A DNA stretch of 64,000 nt. Origin: Hymenobacter sublimis (GTDB lineage: Bacteria; Bacteroidota; Bacteroidia; Cytophagales; Hymenobacteraceae). This document shows, one piece after another, positions 43,476 to 60,684 of this stretch. The notes under the pieces are model-generated. The model worked only from the letters and a program-made list of their open reading frames with translations. It ran no database searches and was not told where the DNA came from. The stretch covers positions 371,501-435,500 of the forward strand of contig NZ_CP095848.1 in NCBI RefSeq assembly GCF_023101345.1. The letters are read 5' to 3'. Numbering within the stretch: the stretch's first letter is position 1; every line of letters starts with the position of its first letter. The position numbers were made by a program, and so were the translations under genes.

Positions 43476-43843
43476 GGGGCTGACCGGAATTGACAGCTTG
43501 TGCAGGTCGCGAGTAAGCGTGTCGGGAGTTGGATGAATCTCCCGTTAAAAAGTCGTCCAAACAACAACCGGCGAGTATAGCTACGCCATGGCTGCCTAAT
43601 CTAGGTATTAGGTAATTGCCATCGTCCCGCATCCGTCTTCCTTTTCACGGGTGAGTTCGGGGCGTCGTAAGTATTAGGATAGTCTTGGGGGCGCTGCGAC
43701 TCCAAGGCGAAACTCAAGCAGATAAGGACAAACCAAGGGCCTGATGTGCGCCTGGAATGTCTCGAAAATTCAAGCATAGATACACACGTAGAAAGCTCGA
43801 CGGCTTCCTTGTCTGGACCAGGGTTCGAATCCCTGCAGCTCCA
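43476..43843 (+). ncRNA. ssrA: Transfer-messenger RNA (tmRNA)
   Basis: The 5' end GGGGCTGACCGGAATTGAC and the 3' end GACCAGGGTTCGAATCCCTGCAGCTCC pair as a 7-bp tRNA-like acceptor, with a T-arm of GGTTCGAATCC. The encoded tag at 43555-43599, translated from a GTC resume codon, is VQTTTGEYSYAMAA followed by TAA. The resume codon is inferred from the preceding AAGTC, as in other tmRNAs. The tag rescues stalled ribosomes and marks proteins for proteolysis; AMAA at the end replaces the common ALAA. The 3' CCA is not encoded (ACT follows), so it is added later. A terminator begins 4 bp downstream. Confidence 0.95.
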
Positions 43844-43846
43844 CTG

Positions 43847-46844: not shown

Positions 46845-47870
46845 TTATTTGGGGCGCTGGGAGGAGGCCCGGATAAGTAACTCGGGGGGCAGCACAATGC
46901 GACGGGGCGAGAAATTGGCCTCGCGCTCCTCGCGCATTTCCAAAAACAAGCGCACCGCTGACTGGCCCATCTGCTCGCAACGCTGATCCACGGAGGTCAG
47001 CATGGGCTCGGTCAGGGAAGTAAAGGTTTCGTTGCTGAAGCCGGCCAGGGCAAGGTCTTGGGGTACGCGCAAGTTGTGTCGCTTCAACTCCTGCAAGGCT
47101 CCCACGATGGAAAAGTCGCTGGCCGAAAACACGGCGTCTGGCCGCTGCCGGAGGGCCAGAAGCTGCTGCATGCCGCGCACGCCATCCTCCACCGTCATGT
47201 CGCAGTGAAAGATGAGGTTTTCTTCCACGGGTAGGCCGTGCTCAAGCAGGGCATCAATGTAGCCCAGCCGGCGGTTCTTGTAGATGTTCAGATGAAGCGG
47301 TCCGCAGAAGTGAGCAATCCGGCGGCAGCCTTGCGCAATTAGGTGCTTGGTAGATTGGTAGCCTCCCTCCCGGTCGTCGAGGACCACGGCGCTAACGTTG
47401 AGCCCATCCAGCACCCGGTCAAAAAACACCAGCGGAATCTCCTGTTTATTCACCTTTTCGAAGTGCTTGAAGTCGCGGGTAGTACGCGCCAATGACACCA
47501 GAATGCCCTCTACCTGGGCGCTGAGCAGCGTTTCGATATTTTTGCGCTCGTGAGCCACATCTTCGTTCGACTGGCAGATCAGCACGTTGAAGCCCGCCTT
47601 GGTGGCTACGGTTTCTATGCCTTTGACCACCAGCGTAAAAAAGTGTCCATCAATGTGCGGCACAATAACCCCGAGCAAATTGCTACGTCCTTTGCGCAAG
47701 CCCGCGGCCAGATGGTTGGGCTGGTAATGCAACTCCTTGGCCAGCTTCCAGACCCTCTTTTTGGTAGCGTCGCTGATGCTAGGATGGTCGCTGAGGGCCC
47801 GGGAAATGGTGGAAACGGAAACCCCTAGCTGCTGAGCCAGATCAGAAATGGAAGCTTTTGCGCGGGCCAA
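46845..47870 (-). CDS. LacI-type transcriptional regulator of the polysaccharide locus
   Basis: The 341-residue protein has the N-terminal helix-turn-helix SISDLAQQLGVSVSTISRALSDHPSIS, the hinge helix region PNHLAAGLRKGRSNLLGVIVPHID and a periplasmic-binding-protein-like sensor domain (FFTLVVKGIETVATKAGFNVLICQ; PQDLALAGFSNETFTSLTEPMLTSV). I start it at a TTG (47870-47868) that lies six codons before the helix-turn-helix; an ATG at 47960 would add 30 residues unlike the family. It probably binds the GCAAACGTTTGC palindromes in the locus and releases them on binding a sugar. Its own upstream region has GCGCAAATTTGACGC, a possible degenerate site. Confidence 0.9.
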   Translation of the reverse strand: MARAKASISDLAQQLGVSVSTISRALSDHPSISDATKKRVWKLAKELHYQPNHLAAGLRKGRSNLLGVIVPHIDGHFFTLVVKGIETVATKAGFNVLICQSNEDVAHERKNIETLLSAQVEGILVSLARTTRDFKHFEKVNKQEIPLVFFDRVLDGLNVSAVVLDDREGGYQSTKHLIAQGCRRIAHFCGPLHLNIYKNRRLGYIDALLEHGLPVEENLIFHCDMTVEDGVRGMQQLLALRQRPDAVFSASDFSIVGALQELKRHNLRVPQDLALAGFSNETFTSLTEPMLTSVDQRCEQMGQSAVRLFLEMREEREANFSPRRIVLPPELLIRASSQRPK

Positions 47871-48059
47871 AATCTCGTGGTATTGAAATGAAAGGAGATG
47901 GGTAAACAACAATATGCGCAAATTTGACGCAAATACTTGACCAATTGCAGCAAACCTCATCCAGTTTTTGCGCAAAAGCTAGCAACTCACAAGCCCATCC
48001 AACCTTTCTCCACTTCAGCGTGAGGCGGGGCAGCTTTCTTGGGCCGCACGCTCACCCAT

Positions 48060-49133
48060 TTAGCGCGGCAAGGGCTGTGGCGTGTAGGTAGGACCCTGGC
48101 AACGCGGGCCTTGCGCCGTCCAGGCTAGTTTATCGATGCACAACTGCCGCTCCTTCATGGCCTTGTCCCAGGCGTGGTAAACGAGGTATTCGGTTTTGCC
48201 ATCGGGGCTAAGCACGTGGGAGTGGTGCCCTGGGCCGCGTACGTGGCCCTCTACCGCGTGCAGGACGCGGGCACCCTTGTTGGCTCCGGCGTCGGAGTAC
48301 GGACCCATGATGGAATCGGCCACGCAATAATCCACGCCGTAGCGGGAAGTCAGGAAGTTGGCGCCGCTGTAGAAGCAGTAGTACTTGCCGTTGCGTTTGC
48401 GCATGAATGGACCTTCCAGGGTGTGCCACTCGGGAAAGGTTTTGCCGCCGTACAGCGGCATAGTGCGGTTTTTCTCGAACACCGTCCAGTCGTGGCGGGC
48501 ACGCATGACGGTGCGACTTTCGCCAGCCAAGCGGGTCATATCTAGCAGCCGGTCGACTACTAGGCCGGTGCCAGGGCGGTAGCCATTGTCCGAATCGATA
48601 AAGTCGCGGGCGTAAAACAGGTACCACTTCCCGTCGGTGTCCTGAAACGGGTGGGCGTCGATGGTAAACTTGCTATCCGGCACATCCAGCAGGGCCACTT
48701 GCGTATAGGGCCCCTGCGGAGTTTTGCTGGTTGCCACGTGCAAGCGGTGGCCCACCGTGGCCCCAATGGCCCCACCGCCCATGGAGTAGTACATGTAAAA
48801 TGTGCCGTTGTGGAATATTACCTCGGGCGCCCAAAAATCTGCCCCCTCGGCTCCGGCAGGCGGTGTGAGAGCCCCGCCAGCCTGTTTCCAATCGACTAGG
48901 TTGGTGGAGGTGAGCAGGGTGAAAATGCGGCCGTCTGGGGTGCGGCCCGTGCCCGTAGTGCCAAAAGCGTAGTAGCGGCCCTGGTGGCGCAGCACAAATG
49001 GGTCGGGAAACTGTCCGGCGTACACCGGATTGGTATACGTGCGAGCCGCCGCCTGGGCCGCGGCCTGGTGCATCAGCGCGAGGGAAGCCAGGCCAGCGGT
49101 AGCCTGTTGCAGGAAATGACGACGGGAAGGCAT
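48060..49133 (-). CDS. Glycoside hydrolase family 43 enzyme (secreted)
   Basis: The 357-residue protein begins MPSRRHFLQQATAGLASLALM, a Tat-like signal with paired Arg. The five-bladed beta-propeller of GH43 is supported by FPDPFVLRHQGRYYAFGT (catalytic base Asp), WAPEVIFHNGTFYMYYS, FTIDAHPFQDTDGKWYLFYARD (pKa-modulating Asp) and WHTLEGPFMRKRNGKYYCFYSG (acid Glu). GH43 enzymes release arabinose, xylose or galactose from plant glycans; I cannot fix the subfamily. It is read divergently from the clan-A hydrolase, with the GH172 remnant and operators between. Confidence 0.92.
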   Translation of the reverse strand: MPSRRHFLQQATAGLASLALMHQAAAQAAARTYTNPVYAGQFPDPFVLRHQGRYYAFGTTGTGRTPDGRIFTLLTSTNLVDWKQAGGALTPPAGAEGADFWAPEVIFHNGTFYMYYSMGGGAIGATVGHRLHVATSKTPQGPYTQVALLDVPDSKFTIDAHPFQDTDGKWYLFYARDFIDSDNGYRPGTGLVVDRLLDMTRLAGESRTVMRARHDWTVFEKNRTMPLYGGKTFPEWHTLEGPFMRKRNGKYYCFYSGANFLTSRYGVDYCVADSIMGPYSDAGANKGARVLHAVEGHVRGPGHHSHVLSPDGKTEYLVYHAWDKAMKERQLCIDKLAWTAQGPRCQGPTYTPQPLPR

Positions 49134-49434: not shown

Positions 49435-49693
49435 CTAGCGGGCCGGGCCGAGGTTTACTTCCAAGTCATCCTTGGAAGGTAGGGTGGGGAAGGGGCGTGG
49501 GGCTTGGTTTGGTACCAGTAAGCCACGGAGGCCACATCGTCTTGCCGGGGCAAGTAGCGGCCGTTGTAGCGCCAGGTTTTAGCCGGTATAGGTTACCTAT
49601 CTCTGTACCGAGGCCATTGAATTTTTGGGCTCAGGTAAAGCCTGGCATGCTGAGCAACAGCAGCAGAAGCAGGTGGCATAAGATATGAGTCAT
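49435..49693 (-). pseudogene. GH172 (DUF2961) gene remnant: both ends kept, core deleted
   Basis: On the minus strand an ATG at 49693-49691 opens MTHILCHLLLLLLLSMPGFT, a signal peptide. An in-frame TGA interrupts before AQKFNGLGTEIGNLYRL, the typical N-terminus of DUF2961/GH172 proteins. The frame then jumps (around 49575) into the GH172 C-terminal pattern RYLPRQ plus DDVASVAYWYQTKPHAP and, after a one-base frameshift, FPTLPSKDDLEVN, ending with TAG. About 300 or more central codons are missing. This is a decayed gene with a stop, a frameshift and an internal deletion. Operator 49759-49772 is still placed 66 bp upstream of its start. Confidence 0.75.
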
Positions 49694-49758: not shown

Positions 49759-49772
49759 TGCAAACGTTTGCA
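49759..49772. promoter_or_regulatory. LacI-type operator (14-bp perfect palindrome)
   Basis: The sequence TGCAAACGTTTGCA is a perfect palindrome with the central CG typical of LacI-family sites. It is one of five copies of GCAAACGTTTGC in the locus and lies upstream of the GH172 remnant and the GH43 gene at 48060. Confidence 0.75.
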
Positions 49773-50032: not shown

Positions 50033-50054
50033 CAGATGCAAACGTTTGCATCTG
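50033..50054. promoter_or_regulatory. LacI-type operator (22-bp perfect palindrome)
   Basis: The core GCAAACGTTTGC (50038-50049) is extended by CAGAT on the left and ATCTG on the right to give a 22-bp perfect palindrome. It lies about 380 bp upstream of the clan-A hydrolase gene and 278 bp centre-to-centre from the site at 49759-49772, which could allow DNA looping. Confidence 0.75.
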
Positions 50055-50432
50055 CGGGTTTTGAGAGTTGTGAAGTGCCTTGTTACTATCACACCTAAGT
50101 ACCTCTCCAGTCCAATTCTTTCCAACTAATTACCACTATACCCATGAAGCACACGCCAAACTAGGGCTGCACTATATCAACGGCCGCTACTCTATCTACC
50201 GGCCGCTAGGTTAAAGCAGCTTCCAACGGTAGGTGTATTAGTAGTACAGTCCGCGCCCTACTCTTTGTGTAGAGCCACGACAACTTCTTCTCCAACTTCG
50301 AGGTGCCGTGTTTTTGCAATAACTCCAGCTTGAGCTCTCTAGTGATAAGCTAGCTGCTTTACGAGGTCATCTGCTGCCGGGCATTCGTTTTACATTTCGC
50401 TTTCTACTTCCTCTCCCAATTTTCATTTTCGC
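50055..50432 (+). other. Gene-poor stretch with short decayed frames
   Basis: No intact gene is present. An ATG at 50144 opens MKHTPN and then stops. In the same frame, after the stop, GLHYINGRYSIYRPLG appears and stops again. Another short frame reads HDNFFSNFEVPCF around 50277-50315. These look like remnants of a lost coding sequence, but I cannot name its family. The stretch also holds the promoter of the hydrolase at 50433. Confidence 0.35.
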
Positions 50433-51530
50433 ATGAAGAATCTGTTGCTCTTTCTGCTGCTGCTCGGTGCTACTACCGGCTCCTTTGCGCAGAAAACTAA
50501 AATCAAAACCAAGGGACCGGCCGCCACGGTCGCTCTGCAAGAACGGCGCTGGTCGGCTGAAAAAGCTACTGCCTGGTATAAGGCTCACCCCTGGATGACG
50601 GGGGCCAACTTCACCCCCAGCACCGCCATCAACCAGTTGGAAATGTGGCAGGCCGACACCTTCGACCCCACTACCATCGACCGGGAGTTGGGCTGGGCTG
50701 AGGGTATCGGCTTTAACACCATGCGCGTGTTTTTGCACAGCCTGGCCTGGCAGCAGGATCCTAAGGGCTTCAAGGAGCGCCTAAATACCTACCTCGGCCT
50801 AGCCGACAAGCATCGTATCCAAACCATTCTGGTGTTCTTCGATGACTGCTGGAACAAAGAGTCGAAAATTGGCCCCCAGCCGGCGCCCAAGCCCGGCATT
50901 CACAACTCGGGGTGGCTGCAGGATCCCGGCGACCCCGCCTCCCGCGACTCGGCTACTTTCGTGAAACTCAAGCCCTACGTGCAGGATGTAATGCGCAGCT
51001 TCGCCACCGATAAGCGGGTGCTGCTCTGGGACTTGTACAATGAGCCCGGCAACAATGGTAAGCTAACCTCCTCCCTGCCCTTGGTGCGCAACGTGTTTGC
51101 CTGGGCCCGCGAGGTGAACCCAGACCAGCCCCTGAGCGTGGGCCTCTGGAACTGGGATTTTGAAGCCTTGAACAAGTACCAAGCCCTGCACTCTGACGTC
51201 ATTACCTACCACAACTACGACGATGTAGCTGCTCACCAGCGCGTGATTGAGCTGCTGGAAACCCACGGCCGCCCCCTCATTTGCACCGAGTACATGGCCC
51301 GGCCCCGCAACTCTCGCTTCGTAACCATTCTGCCTCTGCTTAAAAAGCAGAACGTGGGCGCCATCAACTGGGGCCTCGTCGATGGCAAAACCAACACGAA
51401 GTACCAGTGGGAGGTACCCATTGCCGATGGGGGCGAGCCAGTAGAGTGGTTCCACGAGGTCTTCCGTCGCGACGGCACGCCCTACCACCCAAACGAAACC
51501 GATTTAATCAAGAAGCTCAATGGCCGGTAG
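50433..51530 (+). CDS. Clan-A (beta/alpha)8 glycoside hydrolase, cellulase-like
   Basis: The 365-residue protein has a Sec signal (MKNLLLFLLLLGATTGSFAQ) and a TIM-barrel of the cellulase superfamily. Visible are GFNTMRVFLHSLAWQQDP, WDLYNEPGNNG (acid/base Glu after Asn) and ICTEYMARPRNSRF (nucleophile Glu). Homologues in Bacteroidota are often labelled 1,4-beta-xylanase, but the family number is unclear to me; galactosidase or galactanase activity is equally possible given the gal genes. It is followed at 51669 by a GH43 gene on the same strand. It is exported, probably to the periplasm or surface. Confidence 0.85.
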   Translation: MKNLLLFLLLLGATTGSFAQKTKIKTKGPAATVALQERRWSAEKATAWYKAHPWMTGANFTPSTAINQLEMWQADTFDPTTIDRELGWAEGIGFNTMRVFLHSLAWQQDPKGFKERLNTYLGLADKHRIQTILVFFDDCWNKESKIGPQPAPKPGIHNSGWLQDPGDPASRDSATFVKLKPYVQDVMRSFATDKRVLLWDLYNEPGNNGKLTSSLPLVRNVFAWAREVNPDQPLSVGLWNWDFEALNKYQALHSDVITYHNYDDVAAHQRVIELLETHGRPLICTEYMARPRNSRFVTILPLLKKQNVGAINWGLVDGKTNTKYQWEVPIADGGEPVEWFHEVFRRDGTPYHPNETDLIKKLNGR

Positions 51531-51590: not shown

Positions 51591-51668
51591 TAGTAACGCT
51601 GGGCGTTGTTCCTTTTGCTTCCTTGGCAGCGTAGCGCTAACGTGACCTACTTTTCTGCTTTGAGTTCT

Positions 51669-52724
51669 ATGAAGAAACCTTACTTCGGATGGCTGCTTGG
51701 CCTCATGCTGCTGCAGGCCGCCCCAGCCTGGGCCCAGCAGACGACCTCGGCTACTACCTTTTCTAACCCCCTGCTACCTTCCGGGGCCGATCCGTGGAGC
51801 ATCTACCATGAGGGCTACTATTACTACACTCACACCACGGGCCGCAACATCACGCTCTGGAAAACCACGTCTCTGAGCCAGCTGAAAACGGCCCCGCACA
51901 AAGTAGTCTGGACGCCGCCCGCCACCGGCCCTAACTCCCGCGACATCTGGGCTCCGGAGCTGCACCGCATCAACAACAAGTGGTACCTGTACTACGCCGC
52001 CGACGCGGGTACTAACCAAACGCACCGGCTTTGGGTACTGGAGAACAGCTCCGCGGACCCCTTGGAAGGCACCTGGATTGACAAAGGCCAAGTGCGAGAC
52101 ATCACCAACAAATGGGCTATTGATGGCTCCGTGTTCGAGAACAACGGTCAGCTTTATTTCGTGTGGTCGGGGTGGGAAGGGGACGAAAATGGTCGCCAGG
52201 ACATTTATCTGGCCCGGCTGAAAAACCCCTGGACCGTGGATGGCCCGCGCCTCAAGGTTTCGACGCCGGTGTATAGCTGGGAGCGAAACGGCGACCTAAA
52301 CAATCCTCAGGACCCGCCCCACGTCGATGTAAACGAAGGCCCCGAGGTACTGCGCCACGGCAACAAACTGGTGCTCATTTACTCCGCCAGTGGCTGCTGG
52401 ACCGATTTCTACGCCCTGGGCATGCTCACAGCTTCCGCCGACAGCGACCTGCTCCAGCCCGGTTCCTGGGCTAAGTCGTCGGTGCCGGTGTTTCAGCAGG
52501 ACCCGGCGGCTAAGGTGTACGCGCCCGGTCATAACTCCTTCTTCAAGTCGCCGGACGGCACGCAGGACTGGATTCTTTACCATGCCAACGACGAGCCCGG
52601 CCAGGGGTGCGGCAGGTTCCGCTCGCCCCGGGCCCAGCCCTTCACCTGGAACCCCGATGGTACGCCCAACTTTGGCAAGCCAATACCACCCGGCCAGCTC
52701 TTGGCCCGCCCTTCGGGCGAGTAA
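51669..52724 (+). CDS. GH43 enzyme, arabinofuranosidase-like (copy A)
   Basis: The 351-residue protein has a signal peptide (WLLGLMLLQAAPAWAQ) and a GH43 propeller: FSNPLLPSGADPWSIYHEGYY is split at SGAD (catalytic base Asp in GADPW), IWAPELHRINNKWYLYYAAD, KWAIDGSVFENNGQLYFVWSG (Asp) and VNEGPEVLRHGNKLVLIYS (acid Glu). The layout, with HRLWVLENSSADPLEGTW, resembles GH43 subfamily 26 exo-alpha-1,5-arabinofuranosidases; the subfamily is an inference. It is a close paralogue of the enzyme at 60844-61908. The start at 51669 is chosen because it begins the signal peptide. Confidence 0.9.
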   Translation: MKKPYFGWLLGLMLLQAAPAWAQQTTSATTFSNPLLPSGADPWSIYHEGYYYYTHTTGRNITLWKTTSLSQLKTAPHKVVWTPPATGPNSRDIWAPELHRINNKWYLYYAADAGTNQTHRLWVLENSSADPLEGTWIDKGQVRDITNKWAIDGSVFENNGQLYFVWSGWEGDENGRQDIYLARLKNPWTVDGPRLKVSTPVYSWERNGDLNNPQDPPHVDVNEGPEVLRHGNKLVLIYSASGCWTDFYALGMLTASADSDLLQPGSWAKSSVPVFQQDPAAKVYAPGHNSFFKSPDGTQDWILYHANDEPGQGCGRFRSPRAQPFTWNPDGTPNFGKPIPPGQLLARPSGE

Positions 52725-55805: not shown

Positions 55806-55844
55806 GCAAACGTTTGCTTGCCGTGTAGTGGCGCAAACGTTTGC
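55806..55844. promoter_or_regulatory. Two tandem LacI-type operators before SusC
   Basis: GCAAACGTTTGC occurs at 55806-55817 and again at 55833-55844, with centres 27 bp apart. The second copy ends 40 bp before the SusC start codon, placing both sites in the promoter or leader region where bound repressor would block transcription. Confidence 0.78.
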
Positions 55845-55884
55845 AGTGAGTACCTCCACCAAATTCCCACCTCACTATTTTCCC

Positions 55885-58800
55885 ATGAAAAATTCCTACC
55901 TCAGATTGCGCCGACCAGCCGAGCTGGCGTTGCGCTGTATTCTGCCTCTTTCGGCTTTGGCCAGCACCGGGGCGGTGTCTGCTGAGTTGCCCAAGGTTGA
56001 TATTCGCCGCAACGGGGTTGCTGCCCAAACCATTACGGGTCGAGTTATTGATGAGAAAGGACAGGGGATGCCCGGCGTTACGGTGCTGGAAAAAGGCACT
56101 TCCAACGGTGCCACCACCGATGCCGATGGCCGCTACTCCCTCACCGTAGCCGACAATGCTACCCTTACTTTCTCCTTTGTCGGCTACCTCACCCAAGAGG
56201 TACCTGTTAGTGGCCGCACTAGCGTCAACATCAGCCTCGCCCCCGACTCAAAGGCCCTCAACGAGGTAGTAGTAGTCGGCTACCTCACCCAAGAACGTCA
56301 GAATGTAACCGGTTCAGTAGCCAGCGTAGGCGCCCAAGAAGTGCGCCGCGCGCCGGTTGCCTCGGTAGGGGAGGCCATTCAGGGCCGTCTGCCGGGCGTA
56401 ACTGTTACCAACTCCGGCGCCCCGGGCCAGGCTCCAAACATTAACATTCGTGGCCTGGGCACTATTGCCAGTGGTAGCGGCCCACTTTACGTTATTGACG
56501 GACTGTGGGTGCAAGGACAGGGCGGACAGCGCGACTTCAACCCCGCCGACGTGGAATCGGTGCAGGTATTGAAAGATGCGGCGGCTTTGGCGCCTTATGG
56601 CGCTTCGGGTGCTAATGGAGTAATTATTATTACGACCAAAAAGGGCAAGGCCGGGATTCCCAGCATCTCTTTTAGTGCCAACGGTGGGGTGCAACGCCTG
56701 GTGAACACGCTGGACCTGACGAATGCCGCCGAATGGGCCGCCATCAACCGGCAGGCCTATCAAAATGCCGGTCTTGCACCTCAGCCCTATGCGGCCAACC
56801 CGCCCGCTGGTATTGATACTGACTGGCAAGCCGAGCTGTTTAAAGAGAATGAGAACTTCTTCAAGCGCGGCTCCATTCAGGACTACAACTTAGGCTTCTC
56901 TGGGGGCGGACCTAATTCAAACTTCAACGTGTCGGGGGGCTACTTTAAGCAAGATGGTACCGTGCGGGGGCCCAAGTTCGAGCGGTACAGCTTGCGCGTG
57001 AACACGGGCTTTACGCGCGGACGGCTGAAATTCGGCCAAAACGCTTTGCTCACGCGTACCAACCAAACCCGCCTCAACGGTCTGCCCTTCATTGATGTGG
57101 TGAGGATGCTGCCGGTGATTCCAGTGTATGATGCTACCACGCCCGGAGGCTTTGGTATTGGCAACGATAACGCCATTACGTTTGGCACCAACCCCATTGC
57201 GCTGCAAACCTTGCTCAACGATACCGGCACTTCCAACCGCCTGCAGGGCAATGTGTACGGTGAATTATCCCTTTTCGACTTCCTGCGCTACCGCCTGAAC
57301 TTGGCTACCGAATACCACGGGTTCCATGACCAGCAGAAGCGGCAGTTCGGCATTTGGCGCCGCAACGACGCCACTAACCCTTCCAACTTCGGCGAAAGCC
57401 AGGGCAATGAGCTGTTCGGCATGGCCGAAAACACGCTTACCTTCGACAAGGACTTTGGCAAGCACAACCTGACGGCCGTAGCAGGCTACAGCCAGCAGCG
57501 TTTCCGCCAGGAGTTTACTCGTGGCGTCAACTTTGGGTACGGCACCGGACCTACTTATTACTGGGCGTTGGACGCCGGCAGCCAGACCCCACAGGCCATC
57601 GGCTCGTCCTACGTCTGGGCTAAGCAGTCCTTCTTCGGGCAGCTCACCTACGACTACGACCAGCGCTACCTGGTTACGGCCGCCTTCCGCCGTGACGGCT
57701 CCTCGCGCTTTGACCCGGATAATCGGTGGGGCAATTTTGGCGCGGCCTCCCTGGGCTGGCGCGTTTCGAAGGAGAACTTCTTCCAAGGTGTAACTGCTAT
57801 TTCCGATCTGAAGCTGCGAGCCTCCTACGGCCGCCTGGGCAACGACTTAGTAAACGGGGCGTATGGCGGTTCCTACCTATCGCAAGGCTTTATTAACACC
57901 AACGCCAACTACGCTCTGAACGGCTCGGTAGTGAACGGCAACGGGGCTATTCAAACGACTTACGCCAGCGACAATATTCGGTGGGAAGACCGGCGCACCA
58001 CCAACGTTGGCTTCGACGCGGGCTTCCTGGAAGACCGCCTGATACTGTCGGCCGATTACTACGTGTCGCAGACGTACAACGCCTTGATTAACCCTGATCT
58101 GCCCCTGACTTTCGGCAACGCCGGCCCTAATCCGTTCCGGAATCTAGGTAAGCTGGAAAATAAAGGCTTTGAGTTGCAACTGGGCTATAACGAAAACCGC
58201 ACAAAGTTTCGCTACGGAGCCAGCGCCAACCTGACTACTATTAAAAATACAGTGCTCGATTTGGGCACGGTAGGCGGCGAAGCTACGGGAGCTACCAACT
58301 TCTTCAATGGCGGACCTAATGGTATTACCCGCACCGAGGTAGGTCACGAGATTGGTTCTTTCTACCTCTACCAGTTTGATGGCATTTATCAGAGCGGCGA
58401 CTCCAATATTCCGGCTGGCTTGCAGGCGGGTGATGTGCGCTATAAGGACATCAACGGCGATGGTACCATTAATGACTTCGACCGAGCCCACGTAGGCAAT
58501 GTCTTCCCAAAACTCCAGTATGGCCTGAACCTGAACCTGGGCTACGGCGGCTTTGATGTGACGGCCTTCTTCCAAGGCGTGCAGGGCAATGACGTGTTCA
58601 ACACGACCAAGTACTGGTTGGACCGGACCGACGACAACGGAAACTACCGGGCTGATTTCAGCCCCTGGACGCCCACTAATCCCTCTACTACCACCCCCCG
58701 TGCCCTGATAGCGGGCGGTAATTCGGGTAGGGCTCCTGGTAATAACGCCCTGTTTAATACTACCCGCTGGCTGGAAGACGGCTCCTACTTGCGCCTGAAA

Positions 58801-59043
58801 AATTTGCAAGTGGGCTTCACGGTGCCCAAGCCCCTGCTGGAGCGCACCAAGTACGTGGCCTCCCTGCGCATCTTCGCTACGGGCCAGAACCTGTTCACCA
58901 TCACCGACTACAGCGGCTATGACCCCGAAACGGTGGGTAGCGGGGCCTTCAATACCTTGGGCAACAACTTGGCCCGCGGCGTTGATGAAGGCTCTTACCC
59001 CAACCTGCGCTCGTTCACGCTAGGTATTCAGGCCGGTTTCTAG
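55885..59043 (+). CDS. SusC/RagA family TonB-linked outer-membrane transporter (pair 2)
   Basis: The 1052-residue protein has a signal peptide, a carboxypeptidase-regulatory-like domain (ITGRVIDEKGQGMPGVTVLE), a TonB-box region (LNEVVVVGYLTQERQNVTGS), plug motifs ADVESVQVLKDAAALAPYG and GANGVIIITTKKGKAG, and a barrel ending FTLGIQAGF. It imports oligosaccharides across the outer membrane together with the SusD protein 36 bp downstream. The plug has APYGASGANG where IYGSRGANG is more usual, a small variation. The start at 55885 (MKNSYLRLRRPAE) is preferred. Two operators lie just upstream. Confidence 0.97.
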   Translation: MKNSYLRLRRPAELALRCILPLSALASTGAVSAELPKVDIRRNGVAAQTITGRVIDEKGQGMPGVTVLEKGTSNGATTDADGRYSLTVADNATLTFSFVGYLTQEVPVSGRTSVNISLAPDSKALNEVVVVGYLTQERQNVTGSVASVGAQEVRRAPVASVGEAIQGRLPGVTVTNSGAPGQAPNINIRGLGTIASGSGPLYVIDGLWVQGQGGQRDFNPADVESVQVLKDAAALAPYGASGANGVIIITTKKGKAGIPSISFSANGGVQRLVNTLDLTNAAEWAAINRQAYQNAGLAPQPYAANPPAGIDTDWQAELFKENENFFKRGSIQDYNLGFSGGGPNSNFNVSGGYFKQDGTVRGPKFERYSLRVNTGFTRGRLKFGQNALLTRTNQTRLNGLPFIDVVRMLPVIPVYDATTPGGFGIGNDNAITFGTNPIALQTLLNDTGTSNRLQGNVYGELSLFDFLRYRLNLATEYHGFHDQQKRQFGIWRRNDATNPSNFGESQGNELFGMAENTLTFDKDFGKHNLTAVAGYSQQRFRQEFTRGVNFGYGTGPTYYWALDAGSQTPQAIGSSYVWAKQSFFGQLTYDYDQRYLVTAAFRRDGSSRFDPDNRWGNFGAASLGWRVSKENFFQGVTAISDLKLRASYGRLGNDLVNGAYGGSYLSQGFINTNANYALNGSVVNGNGAIQTTYASDNIRWEDRRTTNVGFDAGFLEDRLILSADYYVSQTYNALINPDLPLTFGNAGPNPFRNLGKLENKGFELQLGYNENRTKFRYGASANLTTIKNTVLDLGTVGGEATGATNFFNGGPNGITRTEVGHEIGSFYLYQFDGIYQSGDSNIPAGLQAGDVRYKDINGDGTINDFDRAHVGNVFPKLQYGLNLNLGYGGFDVTAFFQGVQGNDVFNTTKYWLDRTDDNGNYRADFSPWTPTNPSTTTPRALIAGGNSGRAPGNNALFNTTRWLEDGSYLRLKNLQVGFTVPKPLLERTKYVASLRIFATGQNLFTITDYSGYDPETVGSGAFNTLGNNLARGVDEGSYPNLRSFTLGIQAGF

Positions 59044-59079
59044 GCCCTTCCTCTTTTCCGACTTCCATACCATACCGAT

Positions 59080-60684
59080 ATGAAATCCGCTTTTTTAACC
59101 CGGCTGGGCTTGGCTGGAGCACTGCTAATTAGTGCCACAGCCTGCGAAAAAGACTTACTCGACCAAGTAAACCCAAACCTTCCTACCACGGAATCATCCT
59201 GGAAAAGCAGCGACGATGCCGTGAGGGCTTCCACGGCCACTTATGCCGGTCTGCAAGGGCTGGGCATGTACCGCCGCTGGCTCAATTTTGCTTTTGACTT
59301 ACGCGACGACACCGGTTTCAGCCAAAGCCCCTGGGGTGAACTGGCCGACTTCACGCGCTTTGTGCAAACGAACTACAACTTTGAAGTATCGCAGAACATC
59401 TGGCGCGACCACTACCGCACAATTTACCGCTGCAACCAGGTGCTAGCTTATGTGCCCGCCATTCAGGGCATGGATGCTACCTTGCAGAAGCGGGTGCTAG
59501 CCGAGGCTCGGTTTCTGCGTGCCCTGAGCTACTTCAACCTCGTTTCGCTCTATGGTAACGTACCCCTAGCTCTGGCCCCGCCTACCAGTTTGGACCAGGT
59601 ATATCCGCAGGGCACGGAGGCTGAAGTGTGGGCTCAGGTAATTGCCGATCTGCAGGCCGCCCAGCCCGACTTACCCACTGCCTACACCGGCAACGATGTC
59701 GGCCGGGCTACCAAAGGCGCCGCAACCACGCTGCTCGGTAAAGCCTACATGCAGAACAAGCGGTGGGCCGATGCGCAGGCACAGTTTGCCCAGGTTATTA
59801 GTTCCGGCACCTACCGGCTAACTGCCGATTACACCGATAACTTCCGCCACACTACCGAGAACAACTCAGAGTCCATCTTTGAGGTACAGTTTACGGATGA
59901 AAAGAAAGGCGGTAACGATGCTGGCAACGGCCCCGATGCTACCTCCTCGCAGGGCGGCCAACGTTCCCAATTCTGGGGTGTGCCGGGTGCCGGCTTCAAC
60001 GATGGTGAAATTCGGCCCTGGGTAGTACGGGAAATGCTGCAAGAGCCCACTGCCGCCGGACAGCGCGACCCTCGGCTGGCGGCAACGGCCTTCTACAACC
60101 GCCGCGACCAAGCCCAATTTTCTACTACCCTGCCGGTTGACGCCGACACTCTGGCCTATGGAATAGGATTCCTGAACCGTACCAAGCCGGCTGACAGCAA
60201 GCCAGAGGCAATTGCCGTATCCGTGCGCAACCGGGCCCGCGTGTACTGGCGCAAATACGCCACCGACTACTACCGCACCTTCGAAGACTTCGACTCCCCG
60301 ATTAACCACCGGGTAATGCGCTACGCCGATGTGCTCCTGCTGCAAGCCGAAGCCCTGAATGAGCAGGGGCAGATGGCCGCCGCCATCCCGCTGATCAACC
60401 AGGTGCGGCAGCGCGCCGGGCTAGCCCCACTTTCGGCCGGTAGCTTTACCCAGGCCTCCCTGCGTACCCAACTCATGCACGAGCGGGTAACGGAGCTGAC
60501 GGGTGAGGGCGTCCGGTGGTTCGACTTGCAGCGCTGGGGCCTGCTCGACAACCAGACGGGCCTCAATCTGCTGAAGGCGCGCGACTCGGACTTCAACAAC
60601 TTCGTGATTGGCAAATCCCGCCTGCTCCCCTTAGTGCAGAGCGACGTGGACCTGGGCCGCTTAAAGCAAAACCCCGGATGGTAA
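59080..60684 (+). CDS. SusD/RagB family outer-membrane lipoprotein (pair 2)
   Basis: The 534-residue protein has the lipobox SATAC near residue 22, the N-terminal region DAVRASTATYAGLQGLG, RFLRALSYFNLVSLYGNVPLAL, ATKGAATTLLGKAYMQNKRWADAQ, and the C-terminal MRYADVLLLQAEALNEQGQM and ELTGEGVRWFDLQRW. It is the surface glycan-binding partner of the SusC protein encoded just upstream. An intrinsic terminator follows, separating it from the next GH43 gene. Confidence 0.96.
   Translation: MKSAFLTRLGLAGALLISATACEKDLLDQVNPNLPTTESSWKSSDDAVRASTATYAGLQGLGMYRRWLNFAFDLRDDTGFSQSPWGELADFTRFVQTNYNFEVSQNIWRDHYRTIYRCNQVLAYVPAIQGMDATLQKRVLAEARFLRALSYFNLVSLYGNVPLALAPPTSLDQVYPQGTEAEVWAQVIADLQAAQPDLPTAYTGNDVGRATKGAATTLLGKAYMQNKRWADAQAQFAQVISSGTYRLTADYTDNFRHTTENNSESIFEVQFTDEKKGGNDAGNGPDATSSQGGQRSQFWGVPGAGFNDGEIRPWVVREMLQEPTAAGQRDPRLAATAFYNRRDQAQFSTTLPVDADTLAYGIGFLNRTKPADSKPEAIAVSVRNRARVYWRKYATDYYRTFEDFDSPINHRVMRYADVLLLQAEALNEQGQMAAAIPLINQVRQRAGLAPLSAGSFTQASLRTQLMHERVTELTGEGVRWFDLQRWGLLDNQTGLNLLKARDSDFNNFVIGKSRLLPLVQSDVDLGRLKQNPGW

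Follow-up and report, generated by a model that had tools for sequence, protein, structure and literature searches.

A ghost GH172 gene beside a retained operator pair in an apparently shrunken sugar-utilisation locus of Hymenobacter sublimis

Background

In the stretch of Hymenobacter sublimis DNA analysed here (64,000 nucleotides; hereafter the window) a GH172 gene is represented by little more than its two ends, and a palindromic operator stands upstream of it. This raises the question of which enzyme was lost, whether it was lost alone, and what the operator now serves. A search of titles and abstracts for Hymenobacter utilisation loci returned no literature on this locus.

Results

A GH172 gene reduced to its two ends

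The remnant of the GH172 (DUF2961) gene occupies 259 nt of the minus strand (49693 -> 49435). Frame 1, read from the ATG at 49693, translates as MTHILCHLLLLLLLSMPGFT*AQKFNGLGTEIGNLYRL, where the asterisk marks a TGA (49631-49633) lying in frame inside the signal peptide; the second frame gives AKTWRYNGRYLPRQDDVASVAYWYQTKPHAPSP and the third LPSKDDLEVNLGPAR*, terminating at 49435. Followed along the gene, the translation runs to AQKFNGLGTEIGNLYRL, jumps to WRYNGRYLPRQDDVASVAYWYQTKPHAP and, after a frameshift of one missing base, continues as LPSKDDLEVNLGPAR to the stop. Alignment with the intact genes of relatives, which are 1161 bp long and code for 386 aa, reveals a net loss of 902 bp that took residues ~53-339 together with the WWGEG and GTEDYF motifs. 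The sequence-only reading had described a signal peptide and GH172 N-terminus passing abruptly into the C-terminus, with a stop, a frameshift and a deleted core; translation and alignments bear out all of this, coordinates included.

Each of the three pieces finds its match in full-length GH172 proteins from Hymenobacter, as had been supposed for both ends. The 5' end recovers the intact gene of Hymenobacter sp. HSC-4F20 (tblastn E 5e-11), and the C-terminal 141 bp are identical at the DNA level to 89% with HSC-4F20 and 87% with H. sediminis. Searching the genome of the window strain with the H. sediminis GH172 protein recovered residues 340-378 (E 2.6e-14), 7-52 (8e-6) and 373-393 (1e-4), and no further GH172 at significant E; the Pfam model PF11175 likewise found no match anywhere in this genome. 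Chance similarity of the remnant is excluded. The catalytic glutamates reported for alphaFFase1 (E270 and E291; PMC8605356) fall, when placed via PDB alignment, in the WWGEG and GTEDYF motifs, and both lie within the deleted core. The TGA stop, the frameshift and the ~0.9 kb core deletion with both of these residues make the gene dead, and the window copy is a relic and no functional member of its family.

The probable activity of the lost enzyme

The closest solved structure to the intact Hymenobacter GH172 proteins is 8ic8 (E 1.5e-134), that of ExoMA1, a GH172 enzyme with exo-alpha-D-arabinofuranosidase activity (PMC10509167); the alpha-D-fructofuranosidase structure 7v1v is much farther away (E 1e-42). 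With 8ic8 as the closest solved relative, an exo-alpha-D-arabinofuranosidase is the most likely identity of the lost enzyme. The intact Hymenobacter orthologues align with ExoMA1 (PDB 8ic8; PMC10509167) over nearly the full length and keep WWGEG and GTEDYF, whereas the window copy is without residues ~53-339 and both motifs. ExoMA1 further differs in having no signal sequence (PMC10509167), whereas the Hymenobacter genes start with a signal-peptide-like stretch. The family and the catalytic motifs are also common to the intact Hymenobacter relatives and alphaFFase1 (PDB 7v1v; PMC8605356), but the latter is much more distant. The window strain probably no longer trims a D-arabinofuranosyl linkage, and given that no other GH172 was found in its genome, it is plausible that the loss narrowed its substrate range. 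The GH172 genes of Hymenobacter are thus candidate D-arabinofuranosidases, which is testable.

The locus and the collapse of a block

Surviving genes and the fossils described below are collected in Table 1. GH43a shares 98% amino acid identity with its counterpart in H. glacieicola, and the nearest solved relative of GH43b is an alpha-L-arabinofuranosidase (3akf). A SusC/SusD-like pair at 55828-60684 (PF07715/PF13715 and PF07980/PF14322) stands beside the glycoside hydrolases. The window thus combines a LacI-type regulator with nearby palindromic operators, as in a LacI-family regulon, and a SusC/SusD-like pair beside GH43 and GH5 genes, as in a polysaccharide utilisation locus. With the Bacteroidota polysaccharide utilisation loci it shares this pair, GH43 and GH5 and a local regulator; it differs from them in being reduced, with fossils of three genes, and in its apparent regulation by a LacI-type protein, which may also control the galactose and SusC/D genes.

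Table 1. Positions of surviving genes, gene fossils and operators in the window
Feature	Position	Strand	Evidence
LacI-family regulator, surviving, presumed operator binder	46845..47975	-	Pfam PF00356, PF13377; synteny
GH43a, surviving GH43, downstream of operator 1	48060..49133	-	Pfam PF04616 E 1e-50
Glutaminase-A-like fossil, last ~22 codons	49349..49434	-	tblastx, ASFRACAVVGSYFVMMLIKQLN versus SGFQARSVVGGYFIKMLEKRLS; shuffle test
Ghost GH172 3' end, WRYNGRYLP..LEVNLGPAR*, 1-nt frameshift near 49491	49435..49574	-	DNA identity; alignment; protein search
Ghost GH172 deletion junction (approximate), ~0.9 kb of coding sequence gone	49575..49586	-	alignment with intact 1161-nt genes
Ghost GH172 5' end: start codon, signal peptide with TGA, AQKFNGLGTEIGNLYRL	49581..49693	-	translation; tblastn; protein search
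Operator 1, TGCAAACGTTTGCA	49759..49772	.	exact copy
GH43-lectin fossil: promoter region, start codon, codons ~34-49 (HAKLGLHYINGRYSIY)	50034..50199	+	blastn, tblastx
Operator 2, TGCAAACGTTTGCA	50037..50050	.	exact copy, 278 bp from operator 1
GH5-like gene, surviving, downstream of operator 2	50433..51530	+	Pfam PF00150 E 1e-6
GH43b, surviving GH43	51606..52724	+	Pfam PF04616 E 8e-65

An intact gene of 386 aa between the same neighbours, which the sequence-only reading had proposed to look for in relatives, is present in HSC-4F20 (L015), H. sediminis (L016) and H. mucosus (L017). These three species have a longer form of the locus: on the minus-strand side LacI - GH43a - glutaminase-A-like gene (PF16335/PF17168/PF16334) - GH172, and on the divergent side, past two operators, GH43-lectin gene - (GH127) - GH43x - GH5 - GH43b. 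The GH43-lectin gene codes for a GH43 domain with ricin-type lectin repeats and a T9SS tail, while GH127 is intact in HSC-4F20, internally deleted in H. sediminis and was not seen in H. mucosus. The H. sediminis version (L016 4056-5159), still open, joins residues 1-224 to 542-684 and is a second remnant with two ends, in a relative's version of the same locus.

In the window both neighbours of GH172 have left fossils, standing in the same order as the genes do in relatives. The glutaminase-A-like fossil directly follows the stop of the ghost GH172, just as the gene follows GH172 in relatives, and its score was reached by 0/200 shuffles. On the plus-strand side, the segment 50034-50152 aligns with the start codon of the H. 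sediminis GH43-lectin gene and the region upstream of it (blastn 72%/121 bp, E 1e-9), and further on HAKLGLHYINGRYSIY takes the place of the relatives' HADPEMNYFNGRYYIY (tblastx); this fossil is short, and its protein score alone was reached by 3/200 shuffles. Similarity to a later portion of the GH43-lectin gene, seen at 50274-50330, is too weak to claim. The glutaminase-A-like gene had no match in the strain's own genome (a search run without a positive control), for GH127 and GH43-lectin that genome holds distant relatives only, and GH127 and GH43x are gone from the locus. The earlier claim that the locus once had another enzyme and lost it therefore stands for GH172, but not for a single enzyme: the event is best described as the collapse of a block, from which at least two further genes appear to have left fossils and two more to have vanished.

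The operator pair as a probable live control region

The perfect palindrome that had been claimed at operator 1 is exact, and TGCAAACGTTTGCA has only two exact copies in the whole 4.78 Mb genome, both at this locus (49759 and 50037), the second of which the sequence-only reading did not mention. The two sites are 276, 277 and 277 bp apart in the three longer-form relatives, two of which carry a mismatch in one site, and 276 bp apart in H. glacieicola, which is without those genes. The sequence between the operators is poorly conserved and much diverged despite this kept spacing. The 276-278 spacing would be consistent with helical phasing of the operators, but the sites found at other spacings have two mismatches each, and no phasing is claimed. 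Where the gap between GH43a and GH5 is short, most species show just one good site in it. The window holds five operator-like sites against 0.44 expected. Near-matches with one or two mismatches (55489, 55805 and 55832) adjoin the galactokinase and SusC genes, and several relatives have two operator-like sites 27 bp apart with a third about 285-300 bp away.

The sequence-only reading had placed the intact operator above a ghost gene, a description that could mislead. We reject the idea of a useless relic: surviving genes lie downstream, and the pair and its spacing are kept, even in H. glacieicola, which lacks GH172. On the simplest reading the pair most likely still controls the two divergent units that survive, GH43a-LacI and GH5-GH43b, and the ghost GH172 now forms only leader sequence of the GH43a unit. 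A dead adjacent gene is accordingly no ground for annotating an operator as a relic. That the two-operator divergent segment of ~277 bp is itself selected, for example as a repression loop, is an unlikely extension; if true, a selected segment would have kept its length while its sequence drifted, with its original client genes deleted separately in sister species.

GH172 across the genus and the timing of the losses

PF11175 matches 14 of 120 Hymenobacter genomes (13 strongly and one weakly), so absence of GH172 is common in the genus. GH172 is intact in the compact locus of H. wooponensis (L020; GH5 - GH172 - GH43a - LacI), and H. latericoloratus has a short intergenic region in its place. 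H. glacieicola has a GH172 remnant of its own (L097 12181-12340), much more decayed, with breakpoints different from those in the window; its preserved 5' end reaches ..AKTR, and the C-terminus is missing. In four genomes GH172 lies away from this locus (G106, G019, G055 and G105; L019, L021, L025 and L026), and in two more (G062 and G061; L024 and L022) frameshifts, perhaps sequencing errors, split the GH172, GH43 and GalK/GalT genes. On a tree built from the genes of the locus only, the window species and H. glacieicola are sisters (100/99), several forks are weak, and GH172 presence is patchy, taking four changes (gains or losses); given this patchiness, part of the history of GH172 could be transfer.

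Identity at fourfold-degenerate sites of the window GH43a is only 0.66 to H. glacieicola and 0.62 to HSC-4F20, so unconstrained sequence of such age should be heavily changed. The C-terminus of the ghost nevertheless retains its 89% identity to HSC-4F20, which is the level seen between two intact GH172 genes, and it would therefore have been under selection until recently. A hand count from alignments, restricted to residues that are the same in all three longer-form relatives, gives 3/46 changes for the ghost GH172, as against 14/31 for the other two fossils (Fisher p 1e-4; 7/15 in the glutaminase-like tail and 7/16 in the GH43-lectin piece). That its remnant has changed least suggests that GH172 was the last gene lost from the block, although few sites bear on this order and the fossil tails may be protein ends under weaker constraint.

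Discussion

We consider it highly probable that this is a shrunken arabinose-polymer utilisation locus, from which a block was deleted, GH172 last, with the operators kept for the flanking survivors. The starting form would be the longer locus seen in the three related species. GH127 and GH43x would have been deleted entirely, and the glutaminase-like, GH172 and GH43-lectin genes would have lost their bodies, so that gene ends now flank a divergent promoter region that is itself intact. Both LacI-type operators would have been retained because they still control the survivors on each strand, GH43a-LacI on the minus and GH5-GH43b on the plus.

Among the alternatives, the one that deserves most attention is a single loss of GH172 and its neighbours in the common ancestor with H. 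glacieicola, both remnants then descending from one dead gene. The locus tree joins the two species as sisters and the whole block is absent from both, yet the breakpoints differ, H. glacieicola keeping the 5' end alone and the window both ends, and the window C-terminus shows the conservation seen between intact genes, in contrast to the strongly diverged neutral sites of the two species. We regard a single loss as somewhat unlikely, and favour separate losses in the two species on account of the differing breakpoints and the timing of the ghost C-terminus, though the two remnants may share a first lesion. The remnant might instead have been co-opted as a leader or short peptide tuning GH43a expression, since it still holds a 20-codon signal-peptide ORF and sits where the 5' leader of the GH43a-LacI unit is presumed to be; the leader of H. 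glacieicola is different, however, L098-L100 have only a short one and no leader is conserved, which makes this improbable.

Import of a fragment from another genome, such that the gene was never resident, would fit the patchy occurrence of GH172 in the genus and its position elsewhere in some species. We think it very improbable, as fossils of the correct neighbours flank the remnant in the correct order and the operator spacing is conserved. Least credible of all is an artefact of assembly or sequencing hiding an intact GH172 in the organism: the deletion is accompanied by a stop, a separate 1-nt frameshift and amino acid changes at invariant positions, the neighbouring genes have decayed too, so that one misjoin is insufficient for all lesions, and the genome is in three contigs and 99.99% complete. 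As the sole cause, an assembly error is rejected on these several independent lesions.

Overall, loss by collapse of the block is well supported, and as decay of genes in a locus for carbohydrate utilisation it is of an ordinary kind. The ghost shares with other internal-deletion pseudogenes in operons the two kept gene ends, the stop and the frameshift; what is unusual is only that its relatives display the stages as a clear series. Long locus, compact locus of H. wooponensis, ghost in the window, differently broken ghost in H. glacieicola and short intergenic region in H. latericoloratus form well-resolved stages of a sugar-utilisation locus shrinking while its control region survives. Elsewhere in the window, the sole Rfam match is a tmRNA gene (43476-43846).
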